Assembly (NCBI RefSeq): GCF_000167355.1
Contig: NZ_AAEW02000022.1
Span: 1 to 41,946, forward strand
Direction of reading: 5' to 3'
Origin: Desulfuromonas acetoxidans DSM 684
GTDB taxonomy: Bacteria; Desulfobacterota; Desulfuromonadia; Desulfuromonadales; Desulfuromonadaceae
DNA length: 41,946 nt
Positions 2,935 to 17,527 of the stretch are shown in pieces. The first letter of the stretch is position 1; the number at the start of each line of letters is the position of its first letter. Made by a program: the position numbers and the translations under genes. The notes beneath the pieces are model-generated. The model was not told where the DNA came from and made no database searches. It was given only the letters and a program-made list of their open reading frames with translations.

Positions 2935-3417
2935 TTAATCAACCGCCTGAATCAACGTAATCTCATCCGCCGAAAACACCTTGTCAATATCAAGGATGAT
3001 AATAAACTCCTCATTGTGCTTTCCCATGCCCTGTATAAACGCAGTATCAAGATTGGTACCGATACGTGGTGGCGGTTCGATCTGATCAGGACCGATCTCA
3101 AGTACTTCCTGCACCGAATCAACCAGGGCACCAAGTATGCTTGGCTCACCATCCATCTCCACCTCAGTAATAATAATGCACGTATTCACCGTGGCTTCAG
3201 TCTCGCTCATGCTGAACTTAATCCGCATGTCGACCACAGGAACCACATTGCCGCGAAGATTGATTACACCGCGCATAAAAACAGGCGTCTGCGGCACTTT
3301 CGTAACATCGCTAAAATCGAGAACCTCTCGTACTTTGGCGATCCCCAAAGCAAAGACCTCATCATCAAGCTTGAAGGTCAAATACTGATTAATCTGTCCA
3401 AGATCGTCTGTATCCAT
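2935..3417 (-). CDS. cheW: CheW chemotaxis coupling protein
   Basis: A 160-residue CheW-domain protein that would link a chemoreceptor to the CheA kinase. Family features are visible: [22 protein letters not shown] at the N-terminus, [19 protein letters not shown] in the middle and [14 protein letters not shown] later. Length is normal for CheW. The start at 3417 has AAGGAG nine bases upstream; the longest reading frame adds 17 residues with no comparable ribosome-binding site. It is the first gene of a cheW-mcp pair. No cheA, cheR or cheB is in the window, so the pair probably feeds a pathway encoded elsewhere. Several central residues differ from E. coli CheW, as is common for paralogues dedicated to one receptor. 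Confidence 0.95.
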
Positions 3418-7247: not shown

Positions 7248-7487
7248 TCACATCACATGATCATTGGGTCGCGTCGCTCCTTTTCTCGCTTCGTTGCGGG
7301 AAAACAGTCCCCGGAGGACTCCGATCGTCAAAACGATCCCGGGGATGAGCTGGGAGACGATGAACAGTGCCAGGAATCCGATAAAAAACCAAACAAGCAG
7401 ACCAGCGTCCCCCCCAGAAGCCATTGAGCCTGCGTAAGTCGGCGTTGCAGTAACTGCAACCAATATCAGCATCAAAACACCTTTCAT
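7248..7487 (-). CDS. Small membrane protein, apparent sigma-54 regulon member
   Basis: A 79-residue protein I do not recognise. Residues 1-19 look like a signal peptide or first membrane segment ending at TYA. A glycine/serine patch and a second strongly hydrophobic segment follow (about residues 28-60, LLVWFFIGFLALFIV then LIPGIVLTIGVL), and the basic tail faces the cytoplasm. The start at 7487 has AGGAGGGG four bases upstream, while the longest reading frame adds six residues without such a site. It is a single-gene unit with its own terminator at 7105-7133. Upstream are a well-formed sigma-54 element and two 21-bp palindromes in the same arrangement as the cbcA promoter. This suggests a role tied to low-potential respiration, perhaps as a small partner of an inner-membrane bc complex. 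That role is inference. Confidence 0.8.
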   Translation of the reverse strand: MKGVLMLILVAVTATPTYAGSMASGGDAGLLVWFFIGFLALFIVSQLIPGIVLTIGVLRGLFSRNEARKGATRPNDHVM

Positions 7488-7545: not shown

Positions 7546-7561
7546 TGCAGGGAAGATGCCA
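7546..7561 (-). promoter_or_regulatory. Sigma-54 (RpoN) -24/-12 promoter
   Basis: The minus strand reads TGGCATCTTCCCTGCA, close to the consensus TGGCACG-N4-TTGCW, with the invariant GG and GC separated by exactly ten bases. The predicted start of transcription is near 7535, leaving a leader of about 48 bases before the ATG at 7487. The nearer palindrome is centred about 121 bp upstream. Confidence 0.75.
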
Positions 7562-7645: not shown

Positions 7646-7666
7646 GTGTATAAAAACACTATGCAG
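7646..7666. promoter_or_regulatory. 21-bp palindromic operator, proximal copy
   Basis: Half-sites GTGTATA and TATGCAG are separated by seven bases, matching CTGTATA-N7-TATACAG. The centre is about 121 bp upstream of the predicted sigma-54 start, a usual distance for an enhancer-binding protein. Confidence 0.7.
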
Positions 7667-7747: not shown

Positions 7748-7768
7748 GTGTATAACTTTTCTATACAT
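7748..7768. promoter_or_regulatory. 21-bp palindromic operator, distal copy
   Basis: Half-sites GTGTATA and TATACAT are separated by seven bases. The copy lies 102 bp from the proximal one and about 223 bp upstream of the predicted start. It could also affect the divergent gene at 7864. Confidence 0.7.
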
Positions 7769-8188: not shown

Positions 8189-8755
8189 TCAGGAGCCATG
8201 ATCTTCCGTACCGTCATTGGCGTCGTGGTCAAGATTGCGTGACAGCTTGCCCATAATGGTTCGCTCTCGGCGAATGGCGTCGGCAGCATAACTCCAGATG
8301 CTGTAATATTCCAGGCCGAGAATCGCCAACCCGGCGACCAGCACGGCCACAACATTGACCCGCAAAGCATTGGAGAAGAGATAGAAGATATAAAAGCCGC
8401 TCAAATAGCCGACATGGGACCAGCCCCGGTACACTTCGGTGCGATCGGACAAACGCGACAGAGTAAGAATCAGAGCTGAGAAGCTGTAAACCGCCAGGGC
8501 GATATTGATCATTTTGGGAGAGGGGGGCTTACCAAGAAATTCGCGCATGGACAGCGACAGATGGCTGAGGATATTCACATCCTGCAGAAATACGGCGACC
8601 AGACTGATCAGGATAAACGCCAGCAAGCCCCACAATCCCTGTCGGGACAATCGATGCAGGGAGTCAATATGCGCCTGGATGCGTGCCAGCCGTTGCTGTG
8701 AACTGCGCAACTCTGATGCATCTTCGTCCGATTGCGGCTTACGCCAGAAAGCCAT
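8189..8755 (-). CDS. Four-helix membrane protein in the cbcAB operon
   Basis: A 188-residue integral membrane protein of unknown function. A charged N-terminal part of about 55 residues with coiled-coil character (SSQQRLARIQAHIDSLHRLSRQ) precedes hydrophobic segments near residues 47-65, 85-105, 117-135 and 137-160, and the tail is acidic. It is the last gene of the minus-strand run cbcA-cbcB-heme sensor-this gene. The start at 8755 is preferred over 8809 because GGAGAG lies seven bases before it. Its position suggests it accompanies the bc-type electron-transfer module or the adjacent sensor, but no redox or heme-ligand motif is evident. The gap to the preceding gene is 80 bp, so a separate promoter cannot be ruled out. 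Confidence 0.75.
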   Translation of the reverse strand: MAFWRKPQSDEDASELRSSQQRLARIQAHIDSLHRLSRQGLWGLLAFILISLVAVFLQDVNILSHLSLSMREFLGKPPSPKMINIALAVYSFSALILTLSRLSDRTEVYRGWSHVGYLSGFYIFYLFSNALRVNVVAVLVAGLAILGLEYYSIWSYAADAIRRERTIMGKLSRNLDHDANDGTEDHGS

Positions 8756-8835
8756 CCAGTCTCTCCAGAACGAGTCATCCCAAACGCCGGCCCCCGCAGG
8801 CGTCACCACCGTACCTGTTGCACCCGTTGGGCTAG

Positions 8836-9645
8836 CTACCCCAATTCATGCTTTTTCACCTTCTCAGCCAGTTCTTTGACTGTGTCTGCAATATATTCTA
8901 ATTCGTAACTGTCTTCAAGTTCCGCATCGACATAAATGCCACGGCGTAACTGTTTTACATAGGCGACCAGACGATTGATCGGCACCAGAACATTTTTCTG
9001 CAAAATAGCGGCGATCAGGCCAATGGACAACAGCACCACCATAAACCAGAAGCCCACCAACACATTAACAACCCCGTCCATCCCCTTTTCGAAACTGCGC
9101 TGCGACATGGCCACATCCACGGTCCCGAGTAAAGACTTATCTTGGTTCCCGGGATGGCATGAGGCCGTGACACACCCCTCTTGGCGGGGAATCGGGTAGG
9201 TCAGTCCAATGATATTCTGGTCCTGACTGTCGGTGAAAAAGCGCACCCTTTCGATCCGCCCTCCACCATCCGGCACAGTACTCACACCATCCGGACTGTG
9301 GCAGACGTTACAGCTTTCGGCCTTACGGTCGACCAGATGGCCCACCTCATGATCATTACTGGAAAAACGGATCACACCCTTTTTATCAAAAATACGCAGA
9401 TGAACCATACCGGGATTGCTACCGATATTTTTCACCGTATAGTTCAACGCGGCATGATCATTTTTAAGCATGTCATAGCCGGTTGACCGGGCAACGGTTT
9501 TCGCCATGCAGGCGACACGCTTAACCTCTCCCTCCAGCATCAGATCCTGGATATAGGTATAGAGCAGGATAAAGCATACCGTGATAAACGCTGCCATAAT
9601 GACGGCAACCGGGACAATTGTTCGGGTAGTGATCCGTCTGGACAT
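8836..9645 (-). CDS. Periplasmic heme-motif sensor with HAMP and no output domain
   Basis: A 269-residue membrane protein. TM1 lies at about residues 9-30. The periplasmic domain of roughly 160 residues contains CNVCH (112-116) and CVTASCH (158-164, a CX4CH motif of the kind seen in cytochrome c3). TM2 lies near 195-217, followed by a HAMP-like segment, and the protein then ends with no kinase, cyclase or chemoreceptor domain. The periplasmic part is clearly related to that of the histidine kinase at 13344-14936, with the CX4CH motif at the same residue number. The start at 9645 is backed by AAGGAA upstream. It lies 72 bp after cbcB in the same operon. It could be a decoy or partner for the kinase, or an electron-transfer subunit; both ideas are inference. 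Confidence 0.85.
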   Translation of the reverse strand: MSRRITTRTIVPVAVIMAAFITVCFILLYTYIQDLMLEGEVKRVACMAKTVARSTGYDMLKNDHAALNYTVKNIGSNPGMVHLRIFDKKGVIRFSSNDHEVGHLVDRKAESCNVCHSPDGVSTVPDGGGRIERVRFFTDSQDQNIIGLTYPIPRQEGCVTASCHPGNQDKSLLGTVDVAMSQRSFEKGMDGVVNVLVGFWFMVVLLSIGLIAAILQKNVLVPINRLVAYVKQLRRGIYVDAELEDSYELEYIADTVKELAEKVKKHELG

Positions 9646-9717
9646 AATATCATTCCTTAAAAAAGCAGCGAGGCGGTGCAATCGCCCCGCTGCACTCCAT
9701 TGCAGGCCGGTACAACT

Positions 9718-10359
9718 TTAATGGTCAGAGTGATGCTCTTCCCAACCCGTCCACATCGGCTTGAAGTGGGCGAAAGGCGTGTGGCCCAATGTTGCCAGAT
9801 AGAAATGTGTCGGCAAGAAGGCCCCCAGTGCACACGCCAGCAGGAAGTGAATTCCGGCCACGACACGCACGCCACCAAATAAAACAACCAATTCACGCAG
9901 CGGTTCCAGGTTCATCAGAATCGCTCCAGTGATGATCACCAACGGCACCAGAACCATCATAATCACCACATACGCCCCTTTTTGCATGGGATTAAACTTG
10001 TTGGTCGGGCTCTCCTCATGGGGATTGGACTTAGTTCCGGTGAAGTAATAAAAGAAATAGTACAGTGCCTGACGAATCACGCCGCTCTTAATATCGTCTG
10101 AGGTCGGCACATACAGCTTGGTCAACATCTTTGCAATAACACCGTAATAGAACAGCCACAGTGCGAACGACAGGGCGACAACGATGCCGGCTGTATGATG
10201 GAGACGGATCGCCGCCTTATAGGTGCCGAAGATATTGATATACTCGGGAAAACGGATTTGAGCGCCAGTCACACACAGTGTGACAATACCCAGAGCATTC
10301 AGCCAGTGCCAGATCCGTACCGGTGTCGGAGTCAGATAAATTCGTTCTTGCATTTCCAT
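9718..10359 (-). CDS. cbcB: CbcB-like b-type cytochrome
   Basis: A 213-residue cytochrome b561/Ni-Fe-hydrogenase-b-type membrane protein expected to bind two b hemes and pass quinol electrons to its c-type partner. Four or five membrane segments are evident. Histidines suitable as heme ligands occur in TM1 (RIWHWLNALG), TM2 (LHHTAGIVVAL) and the last helices (VAGIHFLLACALGAFLPTHFYLATLGH). It starts one base after the cbcA stop, with its ribosome-binding site AAGGAG in the end of cbcA, so the two are translationally close. In Geobacter sulfurreducens, CbcBA is a seven-heme c plus diheme b quinol dehydrogenase needed at very low acceptor potentials. The match in gene order and heme number is the basis for this name, given from memory. 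Confidence 0.8.
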   Translation of the reverse strand: MEMQERIYLTPTPVRIWHWLNALGIVTLCVTGAQIRFPEYINIFGTYKAAIRLHHTAGIVVALSFALWLFYYGVIAKMLTKLYVPTSDDIKSGVIRQALYYFFYYFTGTKSNPHEESPTNKFNPMQKGAYVVIMMVLVPLVIITGAILMNLEPLRELVVLFGGVRVVAGIHFLLACALGAFLPTHFYLATLGHTPFAHFKPMWTGWEEHHSDH

Positions 10360-10360
10360 T

Positions 10361-11398
10361 TTAATGCTCCTTCTTTCTGTTCTTGCGGGTCAAAAAGCGC
10401 AGAGTACCGTGACCGATAGGCATGGCCAGTCCGCCAAGCAGAATCAACAGGCCGACAATGTTCAACACCTTACTGCGGGTTGAGCCCACCATATAGAAAT
10501 CCGGGGTACCAAACAGGGCATCGAGCGTTGCCCCTTGTTCCATGGGAACCCGTTGATAACTACCATCTTCAGCCGGAAATGCCGCATAACTGTGCTGCAT
10601 GGCTTCAGGACCGGCGGCATGGCAATAGGTGCAATCCCAGCGATTGTCCAGGGTGGTGAAATTATGCTCTACGGTTTCCGGCGTCATCATCGCCCACAAC
10701 CGCAGACCGGATTTTTCGCCGTTTTTGTAGAATGTCGATAGTTCATCCAGTGAGACTTCACCGTTGTTGTCAATATCCAGCAACGAACTGACCGGCGCCC
10801 CTTCGGTGCGCTCCGCGAGTTGCTGATAGTCGAGCAGCTCATAATCAGCATAAGCGCGATTACCTTGGCGCTGGGTGACATAAAGCGTAATAACAAACTT
10901 CTCCGATGAACTGTGGCAGGACACACAAGGAACCGAGCGGATATGGACATCCGCCTGCGGCAGCCAACGGGCATGGGTCTCTTCCACTTCGGTAGACCCA
11001 TGGCAATCCTGACAGGATTCGTTCATCTGAACACCGGAAAGGCTGACGGGAGCCAACGCCTGATGGGCATTATGGCAGTCACGACATTCGGCATTCTCAG
11101 CGTGAACGCTGGAATTATAGGTTTCGGTGACTTGATCGTGACAATCCGCACAGGTTGCCACCAATTCAGCTTCTACACCATCATCAGGATGCTCATCGCC
11201 CACTTCGTGGCACGCTGTACACCCCTCTTCCGCATGAGCTGTTTTGGCAAACAACTCTCCGGCAATCACATAGTCTTCGCCAACCTCATCGACCTCAGTA
11301 TGGCAACCCAGGCAATCCTCGGTTTCCATGGCCCACACAGTCTGGCTCATCATCAGAGCAACCAGAATGGCCGCATAACACAACAATAATCGTTTCAT
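10361..11398 (-). CDS. cbcA: CbcA-like heptaheme cytochrome c with EF-hand and C-terminal anchor
   Basis: A 345-residue periplasmic cytochrome c. A signal peptide (to about residue 23) is followed by seven CxxCH motifs, at cysteines 29, 60, 83, 105, 129, 158 and 256, and a C-terminal membrane helix (about 310-332) with a basic tail. Between hemes six and seven there is a perfect 12-residue EF-hand loop from D208 to E219 (DIDNNGEVSLDE), which predicts bound calcium. AAGGAGC precedes the ATG at 11398. It is the first gene of the operon with cbcB, the heme sensor and a membrane protein. Upstream lie a sigma-54 element and two palindromes. Seven hemes, the tail anchor and the adjacent b cytochrome fit CbcA of the CbcBA quinol dehydrogenase. 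Confidence 0.85.
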   Translation of the reverse strand: MKRLLLCYAAILVALMMSQTVWAMETEDCLGCHTEVDEVGEDYVIAGELFAKTAHAEEGCTACHEVGDEHPDDGVEAELVATCADCHDQVTETYNSSVHAENAECRDCHNAHQALAPVSLSGVQMNESCQDCHGSTEVEETHARWLPQADVHIRSVPCVSCHSSSEKFVITLYVTQRQGNRAYADYELLDYQQLAERTEGAPVSSLLDIDNNGEVSLDELSTFYKNGEKSGLRLWAMMTPETVEHNFTTLDNRWDCTYCHAAGPEAMQHSYAAFPAEDGSYQRVPMEQGATLDALFGTPDFYMVGSTRSKVLNIVGLLILLGGLAMPIGHGTLRFLTRKNRKKEH

Positions 11399-11511: not shown

Positions 11512-11527
11512 AGCAAGGAGTGTTCCA
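11512..11527 (-). promoter_or_regulatory. Sigma-54 (RpoN) -24/-12 promoter of the cbcA operon
   Basis: The minus strand reads TGGAACACTCCTTGCT against the consensus TGGCACG-N4-TTGCW, with exact GG-to-GC spacing and a perfect TTGCT -12 box. The predicted start is near 11501, about 100 bases before the cbcA ATG. Palindromes are centred about 110 and 203 bp upstream. Confidence 0.8.
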
Positions 11528-11600
11528 TCAAGGCGAAAATTCGGAATAACCGTCTATTTACAAGAACTTAAAAGAAACACCCTTGCGCCAATCCAGGAAA

Positions 11601-11621
11601 CTGTATACAATTTCCATACAG
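11601..11621. promoter_or_regulatory. 21-bp palindromic operator, proximal copy at cbcA
   Basis: CTGTATA and CATACAG are separated by seven bases, with only one base breaking the dyad. Its distance from the sigma-54 start matches an enhancer-binding site. Confidence 0.75.
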
Positions 11622-11693
11622 TCCCAAACAATTCAATGAGTCATAAAACGCTGTAAAACAGGGGGCTAGCGGCTCCCACACACAGCCGACTCA

Positions 11694-11714
11694 CTGTATA
11701 GATTTTCTATGCAG
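11694..11714. promoter_or_regulatory. 21-bp palindromic operator, distal copy at cbcA
   Basis: CTGTATA and TATGCAG are separated by seven bases, and the dyad extends outward as ACTG..CAGT. It lies 93 bp from the proximal copy. It is about 100 bp upstream of the -35 box of the response regulator gene, so it might act on both. Confidence 0.75.
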
Positions 11715-11813: not shown

Positions 11814-11842
11814 TTGACAATGTTCGACAGGTGGGATAGAAC
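11814..11842 (+). promoter_or_regulatory. Sigma-70-type promoter for the response regulator
   Basis: A perfect TTGACA (11814-11819) and TAGAAC (11837-11842, four of six) are separated by exactly 17 bases. They lie about 50 bases before the start codon at 11895. Confidence 0.6.
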
Positions 11843-11894: not shown

Positions 11895-13310
11895 ATGTCC
11901 CAGCCGCGCATTTTAGTCGTCGATGACGAAGCCGTTATCCGGGAAGCCGTTAAACGGATTCTTGAGCAGGAAGGCTACGAGGTTATCACCGCGACCAGCG
12001 GCCATACAGCGCTCGAAAAAGTTCAAATCGATGATTTCACCGTTGTGATCAGCGATTTGAAAATGCCCGGCATGGGTGGCATGGAAGTGCTCAAATCCAT
12101 CAAGATTCTGCAACCGGACGTCCCGGTGATCATCATCACCGGCTACGCTACCGTAGAAACGGCCGTCGATGCCATCAAAAACGGCGCCTTCGACTATCTT
12201 TCCAAACCGTTTACGCCTCCTCAGGTCAAAGAGATGGTCAACAAGGCCATCGAACAACGCAAACTATCCGGAGAAGGCGGCAGCCTCGGCAACACTCTCA
12301 ATGAACATCGCGGTTTCCACCGCTTCGTTGGCGACAGCAAAGCCATGCAGAAGGTCTATGGGCGCATCCTGCAAGTCGCACCGACGGACAGCACAGTTCT
12401 GATTACCGGCGAAAGCGGCACCGGTAAAGAACTGGTCGCCCGCGCCATCCATGAGAACAGCGCCCGCAAAGACATGCCGTTTGTTGCCATTGACTGTACC
12501 GCCCTGGCCGAGAGCCTGTTGGAGAGCGAACTGTTCGGTCACGAAAAAGGCTCGTTTACCGGCGCCAGCCAAACCAAGGTCGGCCTGTTTAAAGTCGCCA
12601 ATGGCGGCACTCTGTTTCTCGATGAAGTTTCCAACATCAGCTTAAGCTCCCAGGCCAAACTGTTGCGGGTCATTCAGGAGCGCGAAGTCACCCCCATTGG
12701 CGGCACCAAGCCGCAGCCCATCGACATTCGCCTGATTTCGGCAACCAACAAAAACCTGCGCGAACTGTCCAATGAGGGCGATTTCCGTGAAGACCTCTAC
12801 TTCCGCCTGAACACCATCCCCATTGACATGCCTCCCTTACGCGAGCGCAGCGGTGATCTCCCCTTGCTGGTCGGCTACTTTTTGCGCAAGTTTGCTGATG
12901 AGATCAACAAAGAGATCAAGGGGGTCAGTCCGGCAGCCATGAACCTGCTTGAAGATTATGATTTTCCAGGGAACGTGCGCGAACTTGAGCACATGATTGA
13001 GCGGGCCGTGGTTCTGACTTCAGGCGACATGATCATGCCCGGCGATTTAGGCATGCATGGTGAAGAACTGATCGGAGCAGGTGATGACGACGGCTACGTT
13101 CCCGCCACCACCGAAGAACTCAAAGAGATGAAACGCAAGCTGCGCGAAGAAGCGGTCAAACCGATTGAAAAAAGCTTTGTTCTCGAAGCTCTGAAGCGCA
13201 ACGACTGGAACATCACCCGCGCCGCCGAAGATGTCGGCATGTTACGCCCCAACTTCCAGGCCCTGATGAAGAAGCTGCAGGTTTCCGCCCGCGACCGCAA
13301 GGTCGACTGA
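11895..13310 (+). CDS. bccR: Sigma-54-dependent response regulator, BccR-like
   Basis: A 471-residue NtrC-family activator. The receiver domain (1-120) has its phosphoacceptor at D54 (VVISDLKMPG) and the conserved KPF lysine near 104. The AAA+ domain has Walker A GESGTGKE (172-179), GSFTGA (219-224) as the sigma-54 contact loop and Walker B TLFLDE (239-244). A Fis-type helix-turn-helix lies near 430-465 (NITRAAEDVGMLRPNFQALMKKL). The usual loop is GAFTGA; here Ala is Ser. AGGAGG is upstream of the ATG. It is divergent from cbcA, whose promoter has a sigma-54 element and paired palindromes, and convergent with a heme-motif histidine kinase. In G. sulfurreducens the activator BccR is encoded near cbcBA and is required for its expression, and synteny supports that name here. 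Confidence 0.8.
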   Translation: MSQPRILVVDDEAVIREAVKRILEQEGYEVITATSGHTALEKVQIDDFTVVISDLKMPGMGGMEVLKSIKILQPDVPVIIITGYATVETAVDAIKNGAFDYLSKPFTPPQVKEMVNKAIEQRKLSGEGGSLGNTLNEHRGFHRFVGDSKAMQKVYGRILQVAPTDSTVLITGESGTGKELVARAIHENSARKDMPFVAIDCTALAESLLESELFGHEKGSFTGASQTKVGLFKVANGGTLFLDEVSNISLSSQAKLLRVIQEREVTPIGGTKPQPIDIRLISATNKNLRELSNEGDFREDLYFRLNTIPIDMPPLRERSGDLPLLVGYFLRKFADEINKEIKGVSPAAMNLLEDYDFPGNVRELEHMIERAVVLTSGDMIMPGDLGMHGEELIGAGDDDGYVPATTEELKEMKRKLREEAVKPIEKSFVLEALKRNDWNITRAAEDVGMLRPNFQALMKKLQVSARDRKVD

Positions 13311-13343: not shown

Positions 13344-14936
13344 CTAGTGACTTGGCGGGACCGGAAGTCCTTTGTCGCCACCGTTGACCGGCAGACGAAT
13401 AGTGAAAGCCGTTCCCTTAGCCGGGCAGCTCTCGACACGAATATCCCCACCGTGATTTTCAACGATCCCATAAGAAACGGACAAGCCGAGGCCGGTACCC
13501 TGCTGATCTTTGGTGGTGAAAAACGGATCAAAAATCCGCTCAAGGTTCTCTCCTGAAATCCCACAGCCGGTATCGGCGATACGGATCATCACCATCTCAT
13601 CATTAAACCAAGTCTTGATCGCCAGTTGCCCCCCGGCTAGCATAGCTTGAGCGGCATTGATGAAGATATTCATGAACACCTGCTCCAACTGATTGGGGTC
13701 CCCCTCAAGCTCCGGAATCTGGTCATCATATTCACGGGCAATTTCAACGTCTTGGAACAGCGTCTGATTTTCTACCAGAGCCAGCGTCTTGTCGAGGATC
13801 GTGTTCACGGAGATATAGGTTTTCATCGGAATGGACTCACGTCCAAAATCAAGCAAGCCGCGAACAATCCCGGCGCAACGCTGGGTTTCCTGAGTGATGG
13901 TATCGAGGTCTTTCTTCATCTGCTCACTGATCCCCGGAGTCTCCGCCGCCATGGAGGAGAACATCAGAATACCGGTGAGCGGATTGTTGATCTCATGCGC
14001 AATACCTGCAACAAGCTTACCCAGTGACGCCAGACGTTCGGAACGCGCCAGAGTGCCCTGCATTTTTTGAATCTGTTGTGTCCGCTCCTCAACCTTGGCT
14101 TCAAGAGTATTGGCCCAGTTGCGAATCTCAGCCTGGGAGGCGCGCAGACTACGGGTCATCTGATTCGCCCCGCGTGCCAATTCGCCCAGCTCATCATTAG
14201 GCGCATCCTCAATCATACTGCTCAAATCGCCTGCAGAGATGCGCCGCTGATGTTCGATCAACACACTAACCGGTGAGATAATCAGCCGTTTGGTCAAAAG
14301 CAACAGGGCGACAAACAACAACACCAACAGCACACAGGTGAGGATGACAAAATAGTTGCGAAAAATATCGACCTGCGCCATACGATTCTTCAACGAAATC
14401 TGCACATCGAGAATCCCGTTGAGTTCACGATCCTGAGGATGGTAATGACATTCCGCCGTATAACAGCTGGGATCGTTATAGATCGCCTTGGTCACACCAA
14501 GAAAAATCTCACCGTTTTCATCATAGAAAGTCCGTCCGCGTGCTGCGGTCGGTGCATAGGCCAGAGGTTCACCAGTATCCAGATGGCAGATACTGCAGCC
14601 CTCAGAGTTGTGCTGAATAATCGTCCCCACCTCCTGCTTGTCGGTGGAGAAATTGATGATCCCTTCCTTATTGAACAGACGAATCCGACGGATGCCGGGC
14701 ATGGCACCCACTTCATCAATCATCTGATAGAGCATCTCTCGATCATCTTCAAGCATTTGGTAATAGGTGGAACGTAGGATGGTTTCGCTGAAGTAATCCG
14801 CTTCGTGAAGGGAGTTCTCCAACGTGATCTGGCGCTGAAAACGGACATTCACCACCACCGAAATAAACATGGTGATCAACAAAACCGTACTGATAACGGC
14901 CATAAACTTGACCAGCAAAGAGAAGCGCAGCGCCAT
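13344..14936 (-). CDS. Membrane histidine kinase with periplasmic heme-binding motifs
   Basis: A 530-residue sensor kinase. TM1 lies near 8-30. The periplasmic domain (about 31-195) carries CSICH (114-118) and CYTAECH (158-164). TM2 lies near 196-217, followed by HAMP (about 218-270), a coiled coil (271-300), HisKA with the phosphorylated H314 in AGIAHEINNPLTG, and a catalytic ATPase domain with N-box NIFINAAQ, DTGCGI and GTGLGLS. The paired CxxCH and CX4CH motifs suggest two c-type hemes, which would let it sense redox state or a gas in the periplasm. It ends 33 bp from the convergent response regulator gene and is its likely partner. Its sensor domain is paralogous to the output-less protein at 8836-9645. 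No strong ribosome-binding site precedes the ATG. Confidence 0.9.
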   Translation of the reverse strand: MALRFSLLVKFMAVISTVLLITMFISVVVNVRFQRQITLENSLHEADYFSETILRSTYYQMLEDDREMLYQMIDEVGAMPGIRRIRLFNKEGIINFSTDKQEVGTIIQHNSEGCSICHLDTGEPLAYAPTAARGRTFYDENGEIFLGVTKAIYNDPSCYTAECHYHPQDRELNGILDVQISLKNRMAQVDIFRNYFVILTCVLLVLLFVALLLLTKRLIISPVSVLIEHQRRISAGDLSSMIEDAPNDELGELARGANQMTRSLRASQAEIRNWANTLEAKVEERTQQIQKMQGTLARSERLASLGKLVAGIAHEINNPLTGILMFSSMAAETPGISEQMKKDLDTITQETQRCAGIVRGLLDFGRESIPMKTYISVNTILDKTLALVENQTLFQDVEIAREYDDQIPELEGDPNQLEQVFMNIFINAAQAMLAGGQLAIKTWFNDEMVMIRIADTGCGISGENLERIFDPFFTTKDQQGTGLGLSVSYGIVENHGGDIRVESCPAKGTAFTIRLPVNGGDKGLPVPPSH

Positions 14937-15503: not shown

Positions 15504-17351
15504 CTAATGACTGCCACCAAGAATGGAAACAACCATCAGAACCAACAGAACAACACCAATGGCAACAGCCGTAAATCCAAAGATTCTCAGGATCAGGCCA
15601 TACAGTGGGCTAGAAGGTTTCTCTTTAAAGAACTGCTCGGTGATCCCCATTTCTTCATAACGCTTCCATTGATCACCACGCTCCTCAACAAACTCTTCCT
15701 TATGCATTTCGCCGTTGAAGATAACGAAGTCCATGGGGAATTTCTCCGGACGCAGGTGCGTATTGAAGAAGTGGACTGAGAAAATAAAGCCGGTTGCCAG
15801 CAGGGCTTCATCCGAATGGACGATGGTGGCCACGTTGAACACCCACCCCGGCAGGAACATGCCAAAGAACTCAGGGAACCACAACATCAGACCGGAACCA
15901 CCGATGGCAAACATACCCCAGAAGACCGCGATGAAGTCGAATTTCTCCCAGTAGTTCCAGCGCTCAAAAGTCGGCTTGGGCCCCTTCCACAGGAACCAGC
16001 GGACCATGCCGGTCACATCTTTGATATCACGCAGGTTCGGCATCAGAGAATCCGGACCAAACAGCCGTTGCAACCACATTCCAGGGATATCCTTGCGGAT
16101 AAACAGGAAGTGGATGCTCAAAACAATCGCCATACCAAAGTAGACGAATGTGATGCAGGCACCGATGCGGTGACCGAACGCGGCGTTGGCGGTACCGCCA
16201 TAGAAGTCCATCATCACCTGAGCCCAGTGCTGGCTGGAGAATTTCAGCGGCAGACCGGTCAATGCCAGGATCAGGAAGCTGATAATGACCAGCAAGTGCA
16301 TGAAAATATGGTAGTTCTGGAAGCGCTTGTAGACCCGGTGTCCATCAGGAATCTCAATGTGCGCTTTCCCCGCAGCCAGAGCGGCTTTCTTCTCTTTATT
16401 CTCGGCAATGCCGCGAATCATCCACAGGATGGAGTGCAGCCAGAACACGGAGAAGGTACCCACCAGCAACGTGGTCATGGCCCAGAAGGTCACGGCCAGT
16501 ACCGGGTAGTTATCAAAGTCGGCGTGATCACCGTGAGAATAGAATTGGCTGAACAGACGGCTGGAACCCTCATGGCACTTACCGCATGTATCGGCACGAT
16601 TCTCAAGATTGATGGTTGCCGCAGGATTGTCTTCCGGATAGATGTCATGGCTGCCATGGCAGTCAGCACAGGTGGCTGTCAACTCAGGATAGCCGAGACG
16701 GTAGCTCTTACCATGGTAGCTGGCCAGATAAGTATGAACGGCACCGCCGTAGACTTCGTTGCGCTCCATCATCTCTTCGTCACCGTGACAGGTGATACAG
16801 GCATCGGTTCCGAAGGAGCGGGCCACCTTCACATCACAGGTGGACAGGCCGGTAATGGCATGAAGACCGTGACAGTCGGCACAAGAGGCGCCGTCTTCGT
16901 TGCCTTCAGCAATCGCTTTACCATGTGTGGACTCGGCATAGCCCTCCATCTCATGACAGTTGTTACAACCGTTGACAATGGACTGCTTGCCTGCCGGAGC
17001 TTCCTCCAGCGTGTGGATGCCGTCATGACAATCGGCACAACCCACTTCGTTTTGCGCGTGAACACTGCCGGCATGCTCTTCAGCAATCGAGTCGTGGCAA
17101 TTGGCACAATTAACGGGACCGGGCAGCACACCCTCGTCGACGTGAGCCGTCAGATCATCAACTTCATGACAATCAAGGCACTCAAACTCTTGCTGACCAT
17201 GGACCGATGCCATAAAGTCACTGGCTGTAACGACATCGTCGTGACATTCAAGGCAGGTTTCCATATCTGCCAGAGCACTCTGGGCGCCAAACAGCAGCAG
17301 AACTGCCGCAATCAGGCCCAACGATACCCAACGCGATACCCTTTTCTCCAT
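15504..17351 (-). CDS. cbcL: CbcL-like nonaheme cytochrome c / cytochrome b fusion
   Basis: A 615-residue inner-membrane cytochrome. After a signal peptide (1-28) comes a periplasmic domain with nine CxxCH motifs (about residues 33-260). A membrane b-type domain (about 285-615) follows, with five or six helices and histidines in NYHIFMHLLVIISF, AFGHRIGACITFVYFG, SIHFLFIRK and FSVHFFNTH that can ligate b hemes. G. sulfurreducens CbcL has the same layout, nine c hemes fused to a diheme b domain, and oxidises menaquinol when acceptors are of low potential. The start at 17351 is preferred over 17399 because AAGGAG precedes it and the signal peptide begins there. It is a single-gene unit with its own terminator. 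A 21-bp palindrome lies 110 bp upstream. Confidence 0.88.
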   Translation of the reverse strand: MEKRVSRWVSLGLIAAVLLLFGAQSALADMETCLECHDDVVTASDFMASVHGQQEFECLDCHEVDDLTAHVDEGVLPGPVNCANCHDSIAEEHAGSVHAQNEVGCADCHDGIHTLEEAPAGKQSIVNGCNNCHEMEGYAESTHGKAIAEGNEDGASCADCHGLHAITGLSTCDVKVARSFGTDACITCHGDEEMMERNEVYGGAVHTYLASYHGKSYRLGYPELTATCADCHGSHDIYPEDNPAATINLENRADTCGKCHEGSSRLFSQFYSHGDHADFDNYPVLAVTFWAMTTLLVGTFSVFWLHSILWMIRGIAENKEKKAALAAGKAHIEIPDGHRVYKRFQNYHIFMHLLVIISFLILALTGLPLKFSSQHWAQVMMDFYGGTANAAFGHRIGACITFVYFGMAIVLSIHFLFIRKDIPGMWLQRLFGPDSLMPNLRDIKDVTGMVRWFLWKGPKPTFERWNYWEKFDFIAVFWGMFAIGGSGLMLWFPEFFGMFLPGWVFNVATIVHSDEALLATGFIFSVHFFNTHLRPEKFPMDFVIFNGEMHKEEFVEERGDQWKRYEEMGITEQFFKEKPSSPLYGLILRIFGFTAVAIGVVLLVLMVVSILGGSH

Positions 17352-17460: not shown

Positions 17461-17481
17461 CTGTATGTTTTTATTATACAG
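17461..17481. promoter_or_regulatory. 21-bp palindromic operator at cbcL
   Basis: CTGTATG and TATACAG are separated by seven bases, matching the palindromes at cbcA. Only one copy is well conserved here. A TTGTATACAATTG sequence at 17528-17540 may be a degenerate second copy. Confidence 0.65.
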
Positions 17482-17527
17482 CGCTACGCTTACTACCACG
17501 AAATAACGAACAAAGTCAATCCAACAA

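Follow-up and report, generated by a model that had tools for sequence, protein, structure and literature searches.

A candidate operator palindrome that co-occurs with a sigma-54 response regulator may link cbcBA, CbcL-like and small membrane protein genes in the Desulfuromonadales

The choice that metal- and electrode-respiring bacteria make among inner-membrane quinol oxidases of differing potential has, to our knowledge, no settled explanation. Excerpts from two papers on Geobacter sulfurreducens describe CbcBA (GSU0593-0594) as a heptaheme CbcA with a PF01292 CbcB (PMC7726332), and CbcL as a protein with 9 c-type hemes and a membrane b-type domain that is required once the acceptor potential is below about -100 mV; without CbcBA, Fe(III) reduction stops at -210 mV (PMC9129911). 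The DNA analysed here, 41,946 nucleotides of Desulfuromonas acetoxidans DSM 684 (contig NZ_AAEW02000022.1; hereafter, the window), encodes a CbcBA-like pair and a CbcL-like cytochrome. The genes and elements around cbcA are as follows.

8189-8809, minus strand: protein of unassigned function with membrane segments (judged by eye), the final gene in the putative cbcA operon
8836-9681, minus strand: membrane protein with heme-like motifs CNVCH and CVTASCH, like the sensor half of the neighbouring kinase (13344-14936) without the kinase domain
9718-10359, minus strand: CbcB-like b-type cytochrome, b561-type (PF01292)
10361-11398, minus strand: CbcA-like protein with 7 CXXCH motifs and, by eye, a C-terminal membrane helix
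11512-11527, minus strand: sigma-54 -24/-12 element of cbcA, TGGAACACTCCTTGCT, GG-N10-GC; start predicted at about 11501
11601-11621: proximal candidate operator palindrome of cbcA, CTGTATACAATTTCCATACAG, 1/14 mismatch; centre about 110 bp 5' of the predicted start
11694-11714: distal candidate operator palindrome of cbcA, CTGTATAGATTTTCTATGCAG, 1/14 mismatch; centre about 203 bp 5' of the predicted start
11814-11842, plus strand: sigma-70-like promoter of the response regulator, TTGACA-N17-TAGAAC, largely conserved in the alignment
11895-13310, plus strand: sigma-54 response regulator (receiver PF00072, AAA+ PF00158, Fis-type HTH PF02954), the proposed binder
13344-14936, minus strand: histidine kinase, proposed partner of the response regulator, with CSICH and CYTAECH in the sensor region

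As in G. sulfurreducens CbcBA, the window pairs a heptaheme CbcA-like protein with a PF01292 CbcB-like one, and the adjacency of the two genes suggests a single operon. A sigma-54 response regulator (RR) and a kinase likewise lie beside cbcBA, as in the CbcBA/BccR system, where BccR is what we take to be the sigma-54 regulator of G. sulfurreducens cbcBA (GSU0598). The closest named relative seen was a Desulfuromonas MAG (L013) with a cbcA 85% identical. Matches to cbcA at E <= 1e-30 were present in 65/136 genomes of the host order, and 13 of 20 class members outside the order had a cbcA-cbcB match in the RR neighbourhood. A kinase match was found near the RR in most loci examined. By eye, the kinase and the 8836-9681 protein have in common a sensor-like region with CXXCH and CX4CH; their heme-like motifs suggest c-type heme sensing, the 8836-9681 protein may be a stand-alone co-sensor or competitor, and we see about an even chance that heme redox is the signal of the kinase/RR system.

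Upstream of cbcA, the preliminary description of this DNA had seen two copies of CTGTATA-N7-TATACAG, 93 bp apart. The pair and its spacing stand; the copies are not literal, each being off at 1 of the 14 specified bases. The same description had placed their centres about 110 and 203 bp 5' of the predicted cbcA start (about 11501), which a recount bore out to within one base (109 and 202 bp), and its -24/-12 element at 11512-11527 held up as GG-N10-GC with 1 mismatch among 12 specified bases, the GG and GC being kept, together with both palindromes, in 7 aligned genomes. Taken alone, such an element is weak evidence, and a loose scan with TG rather than GC fixed in the -12 half returned 34 -24/-12-like elements in the window. 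The genome encodes rpoN (PF04552, 219.5 bits). Activator sites of sigma-54 promoters lie about 80-250 bp upstream, and the cbcA palindromes, at 110 and 203 bp, fit this rule.

With up to 3 mismatches to the 21-bp consensus allowed, a scan of the window returned 7 matches; 100 shuffles averaged 0.47, and the largest count among them was 3. Five are intergenic (7646, 7748, 11601, 11694 and 17461), and those beyond the cbcA promoter accompany two further genes.

7248-7487, minus strand: 79-aa small membrane protein, the second candidate target; no family match
7546-7561, minus strand: sigma-54-like element of the small protein, TGGCATCTTCCCTGCA, 3 mismatches
7646-7666: proximal palindrome of the small membrane protein gene, 2 mismatches, about 120 bp upstream
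7748-7768: distal palindrome of the small membrane protein gene, 2 mismatches, about 222 bp upstream
15504-17351, minus strand: CbcL-like cytochrome with 9 CXXCH motifs and a C-terminal membrane domain
17461-17481: palindrome of the CbcL-like gene, 1 mismatch, just 3' of the sigma-70-like promoter, in a repressor position
17490-17519, minus strand: sigma-70-like promoter of the CbcL-like gene, TTGACT-N18-TAGTAA, its -10 preceded by TGn

The remaining two matches, at 3031 (2 mismatches, within a CheW-like frame) and 4833 (3 mismatches, within a short frame between ribonucleotide reductase and radical-SAM genes), look like chance. Across the genome (3.82 Mb, 51 contigs, 96% complete), all 3 sites with <=1 mismatch fall inside the window, and at <=2 mismatches there were 12 sites versus 5 for the reversed pattern. 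The other 2-mismatch sites of this genome (G000) lie inside reading frames on contigs C3, C9 and C17 and are intergenic on C2 and C7. The C2 palindrome (L004 1501-1521; G000:C2:198736), between a GntR/MocR-like gene and the next gene, is identical in G033 and G035, and is possibly another site or one of another regulator.

It is highly improbable that the palindromes are chance, AT-rich low complexity or LexA-type SOS boxes. The half-site CTGTATA does resemble E. coli LexA boxes; the LexA consensus is CTG-N10-CAG over 16 bp, whereas the palindrome is CTG-N15-CAG over 21 bp. Within 5 kb of 86 RR loci (85 genomes, many loci shortened by contig ends), spacer 7 gave 8, 49, 94 and 182 sites at up to 0, 1, 2 and 3 mismatches, compared with 0, 0-2, 1-17 and 13-75 for the remaining spacers from 0 to 15. 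The LexA-like spacer of 2 gave 0 sites at <=1 mismatch, and a LexA-type box was rejected because the spacer differs. Chance, for its part, is opposed by the shuffles and by the retention of the cbcA sites in the 7 aligned genomes. ModE-, NikR- and Rex-type boxes were also considered, at the level of consensus sequences.

The distances between palindromes and sigma-54 elements step by about one helical turn. We collected 60 sigma-54 elements (<=2 mismatches) with a palindrome (<=2 mismatches) 60-320 bp upstream, which gave 53 distinct genus-and-distance values, 30 nearer and 23 farther, with distance counts differing by one base between runs. The nearer distances are 110-111 (n = 2), 118-122 (n = 6), 131-135 (n = 19), 143-145 (n = 2) and 84 bp (n = 1), and the farther ones 200-204 (n = 4), 214 (n = 1), 223-227 (n = 3), 230-239 (n = 13), 248 and 253 bp. 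At an 11-bp period, which was examined after the distances had been seen, the Rayleigh p values are about 2e-7 (near) and 0.01 (far), and at 10.5 bp they are 2e-6 and 0.015, all nominal as the genera are not independent; the best-fit periods are 12.1 (near) and 11.0 (far). Near and far sites occur together (<=3 mismatches) at 29/60 promoters, where the pair spacing falls into two classes one turn apart, 90-93 bp (n = 16) and 101-105 bp (n = 13), with none at 94-100; a further site at 124-125 bp is present at 5 of these promoters. The small-protein promoter of the window repeats the paired design at 120 and 222 bp, and falls outside the set of 60 because its element has 3 mismatches. The same design recurs on another contig of this genome (L009), at 134 and 226 bp before a small-protein paralogue, and a site with a small-protein match was also found in G030, G033, G034 and G035. 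Such helical stepping is what DNA looping by an enhancer-binding protein acting from a fixed face would need.

To identify the likely binder, we compared the distribution of near-perfect sites with that of the RR (called at E <= 1e-140) in 136 genomes of the host order, 85 with and 51 without it. Sites at <=1 mismatch were present in 49/85 genomes with the RR (80 sites) versus 1/51 without (1 site; Fisher p 2.6e-12), while the reversed-pattern control gave 16/85 versus 5/51 (19 and 6 sites; p 0.22); these p values, like those that follow, are nominal because the genomes are related. In the sole site-bearing genome scored as lacking the RR, G127, the RR is cut by a contig end (L073). Counted by genus, sites occur in 19/35 with the RR versus 0/18 without. 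Among 141 genomes of the class outside the order (107 with the RR, 34 without), the figures are 60/107 (100 sites) versus 3/34 (4 sites; p 8e-7), with p 0.49 for the reversed pattern (28 and 14 sites). The palindrome tracks the RR rather than cbcA: within the order, sites were found in 15/26 genomes with the RR and no cbcA, in 1/6 with cbcA and no RR (G127), and in 0/45 with neither.

The preliminary description had named the adjacent sigma-54 RR as the natural binder. It is probably that, because in the cross-genome comparison near-perfect sites follow the RR also where cbcA is missing, and we regard binding of the palindrome by the RR, with sigma-54 activation, as very probable on these comparative grounds. 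An unlinked regulator that binds the palindromes and merely co-occurs with the RR is an improbable alternative. It would draw on the fact that the assignment comes from sequence comparison, on the RR genomes with no good site (36/85 in the order at <=1 mismatch) and on the 3/34 class genomes outside the order that have sites without the RR. This alternative is opposed by the occurrence of sites near the RR gene in families with different neighbours, by the near absence of sites from order genomes without the RR, including those bearing cbcA, and by the recognition helix of the RR, where RPNFQ is nearly invariant in 106 orthologue loci and the PNF core was found in 0/8 paralogue matches. Outside the order, 9/20 loci had no site at <=2 mismatches, these 20 having been picked, mostly by high score, from the 107 RR genomes. 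In G031 the RR adjoins cbcA, yet no site at <=3 mismatches was found in the 1,200 bp upstream. A member of the window's genus, G032 (L066), has no RR match and retains cbcA, and the 1,200 bp before that gene hold no site at <=3 mismatches.

With the RR taken as the probable binder, the genes downstream of its sites can be considered. The preliminary description had looked to cbcA, and within the window's genus cbcBA does have a site pair of its own. As a universal target, cbcA was rejected: a search of the 1,200 bp before the gene, at <=3 mismatches, gave a site in only 17/61 loci (the window and 60 of 67 other places, with the upstream sequence shortened or missing in 3/61). The cbcA loci examined in family f3 are separate from the RR and lack a site, whereas the small protein next to the RR often carries one. 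Across the order, the small protein is the commonest sigma-54 target because 41 of the 60 palindrome-linked promoters are followed by a member of its family (>28 bits), compared with 9/60 followed by cbcA. Among the other 10, 2 run straight into cbcB and 2 into small proteins that are related by eye. The cbcB-first promoters belong to G041 and G040 (L216, L217; family f7).

The small-protein matches are concentrated at the expected position: 41/59 compare with 0/59 on the opposite strand and 0/48 at 2.5 kb downstream, and a control 0.85-1.6 kb upstream on both strands gave 8/60 and 0/60. Downstream of cbcBA, the window and some relatives have the small protein gene with a second pair of sites. 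Its frame at 7248-7487 matched no Pfam or NCBIfam family (best Pfam E 0.37); the query used in the locus scans began one codon early and ran a few residues beyond the stop of this true frame. Members of the family have a motif around QLIP, and the paralogue on L009 lies at 1715-1945.

The motif had also been expected before other electron-transfer genes, and the scan did not contradict this, as CbcL-like genes also carry it. The 9 CXXCH motifs and, by eye, C-terminal membrane domain of the window protein would correspond to the 9 c-type hemes and membrane b-type domain of G. sulfurreducens CbcL, and in the window's genus the CbcL-like gene lies near cbcBA and bears the palindrome. Residues 342-528 weakly match a formate dehydrogenase gamma subunit model, below the cut-off. 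Upstream of CbcL-like genes (73 places, 62 with the RR and 11, in 10 genomes, without; the upstream stretch was only 37 bp in G050 and 152 bp in G128), a site at <=2 mismatches was present in 34/62 with the RR and absent from the other 28, compared with 1/11 without the RR (G127); wrong spacers (3-6 and 8-13) gave 0-3/62. Several of the CbcL-like genes with a site are far from the RR, e.g., about 350 kb in G105. The CbcL-like gene of G028 (G028:C115:6341-7918) aligns in two pieces that leave out query residues 276-364, which could reflect an internal deletion or a misassembly.

The context of these sites differs from that at the sigma-54 promoters. Of 39 upstreams with a site (<=3 mismatches), 24 have TTGAC in the 60 bp that precede it, versus 0/39 and 7/39 in control windows, the 24 cases not being independent as many sequences are related; the TTGAC begins 35-46 bp before the palindrome in 23/24, with TGnTA between in 23. 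An alignment of 9 genomes shows TTGACTT and TG.TA conserved immediately ahead of the site, and genus g20 has, by eye, TTGCAA/TTGCAT in a similar place. Given TTGAC 35-46 bp upstream, the palindrome lies at or just after the expected sigma-70-like start. Binding at or just after a promoter start usually blocks transcription. Since the palindrome sits at a sigma-70-like start with no convincing sigma-54 element, the CbcL-like gene may be repressed from it, a reading to which we give even weight for and against.

Alternatively, the RR may only activate, so that at the CbcL-like gene it would activate through a poor sigma-54 element, help sigma-70 or fine-tune, with no repression; we consider this unlikely, if a serious contender. 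Sigma-54 regulators are mainly activators, and four genomes (G007, G016, G017 and G018) have their CbcL site in a different context, about 248 bp upstream and with no TTGAC before it. Some GG-N10-GC lies between site and gene in 20/39 CbcL upstreams (3 with 3 mismatches, the rest with more), and in the window genome and four close relatives (G000, G035, G034, G033 and G027) it stands at a shared distance, 112-114 bp past the site, near that of the activated promoters. But this element has 4-5 mismatches, is disrupted in two members of the same genus (G030 and G029), has no shared distance in the other 34/39, and would place the messenger start 7-8 bases ahead of the start codon and 3' of a conserved AAGGAG ribosome binding site, so that it is unlikely to be the sigma-54 element of the CbcL-like gene. 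The conserved TTGACTT and TG.TA, and the excess of TTGAC over the control windows, also speak against activation only. A separate candidate element at 17274-17289 was rejected, as it lies inside the coding region.

Weaker sites occur elsewhere. Upstream of nqrA, the window genome has a 3-mismatch site at 458 bp, which recurs as a weak palindrome at 452-461 bp in G028, G029, G030, G033 and G035. In G039, a 2-mismatch site stands at 293, just after a TTGACA promoter. The regulon may include the Na+-NQR, but the spacer control discriminates poorly, with 7/10 at <=3 mismatches for spacer 7 and 7/10 for spacer 3 (1/10 without upstream sequence). A candidate site on G028:C80 adjoins nqrA, and one on G027:C203 has the same neighbour genes on a contig that ends before nqrA. 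The 2-mismatch palindrome of G029:C63 (L249 3001), between nuo genes and an aminotransferase gene, is possibly chance.

Sigma-54 activators with tandem upstream sites are textbook cases, and NtrC at glnA has a dual role, also repressing sigma-70 promoters from sites over the start. With its receiver, sigma-54 AAA+ domain and Fis-type HTH, the RR is of the NtrC family, and the system has in common with NtrC-type regulators the tandem upstream sites and, probably, sigma-54 activation. It differs from NtrC in palindrome sequence, in pair spacing (90-93 or 101-105 bp) and in its candidate targets, which here are quinol-oxidising cytochromes. The type of activation is already known, and the proposed regulon appears new. 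In the literature searched, which lacked the primary CbcBA paper (Joshi 2021), we found no description of this operator, and because of that gap an earlier one may exist; the same search returned no paper joining BccR with Geobacter, nor one joining CbcL, a response regulator, a promoter and Geobacter. The main text of the G. sulfurreducens RpoN regulon paper mentions neither GSU0593, 0594, 0595 or 0598 nor palindromes (PMC2725144), the TGTATA passage in an excerpt of PMC3403914 is a plasmid repeat, and excerpts of PMC12977616 and PMC13407953 hold nothing on this operator.

Taken as a whole, these patterns are probably best explained by a palindrome that is the operator of the RR, activating cbcA and the small protein and blocking the CbcL-like gene. 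The kinase, with its heme-like sensor motifs, would read the periplasmic redox state and phosphorylate the RR, whose dimers would occupy two sites separated by about 9 to 10 turns of the helix. Through a loop in the DNA, the AAA+ domain of the RR would then open the sigma-54 polymerase complex at cbcA. The second palindrome pair would control the small membrane protein, and the single operator over the CbcL-like start would block its sigma-70 promoter, so that one signal could switch quinol oxidation from CbcL towards CbcBA. The most specific form of the proposal, in which a heme-sensing two-component system directly and oppositely controls CbcBA (on) and CbcL (off), plus the small-protein family, is tentative, with doubt somewhat outweighing belief; our confidence in this dual control was lowered slightly because of the poor GG-N10-GC after the CbcL site.

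Control through this palindrome points to a way in which some metal-breathing bacteria might shift respiratory gear. A defined operator, a candidate regulator and sensor, and predicted opposite effects on two cytochromes make the proposal testable with few promoter mutants. The operator also offers a sequence by which the regulon could be sought in metagenomes, and it brings to light a recurrent family of small membrane proteins without an assigned role.
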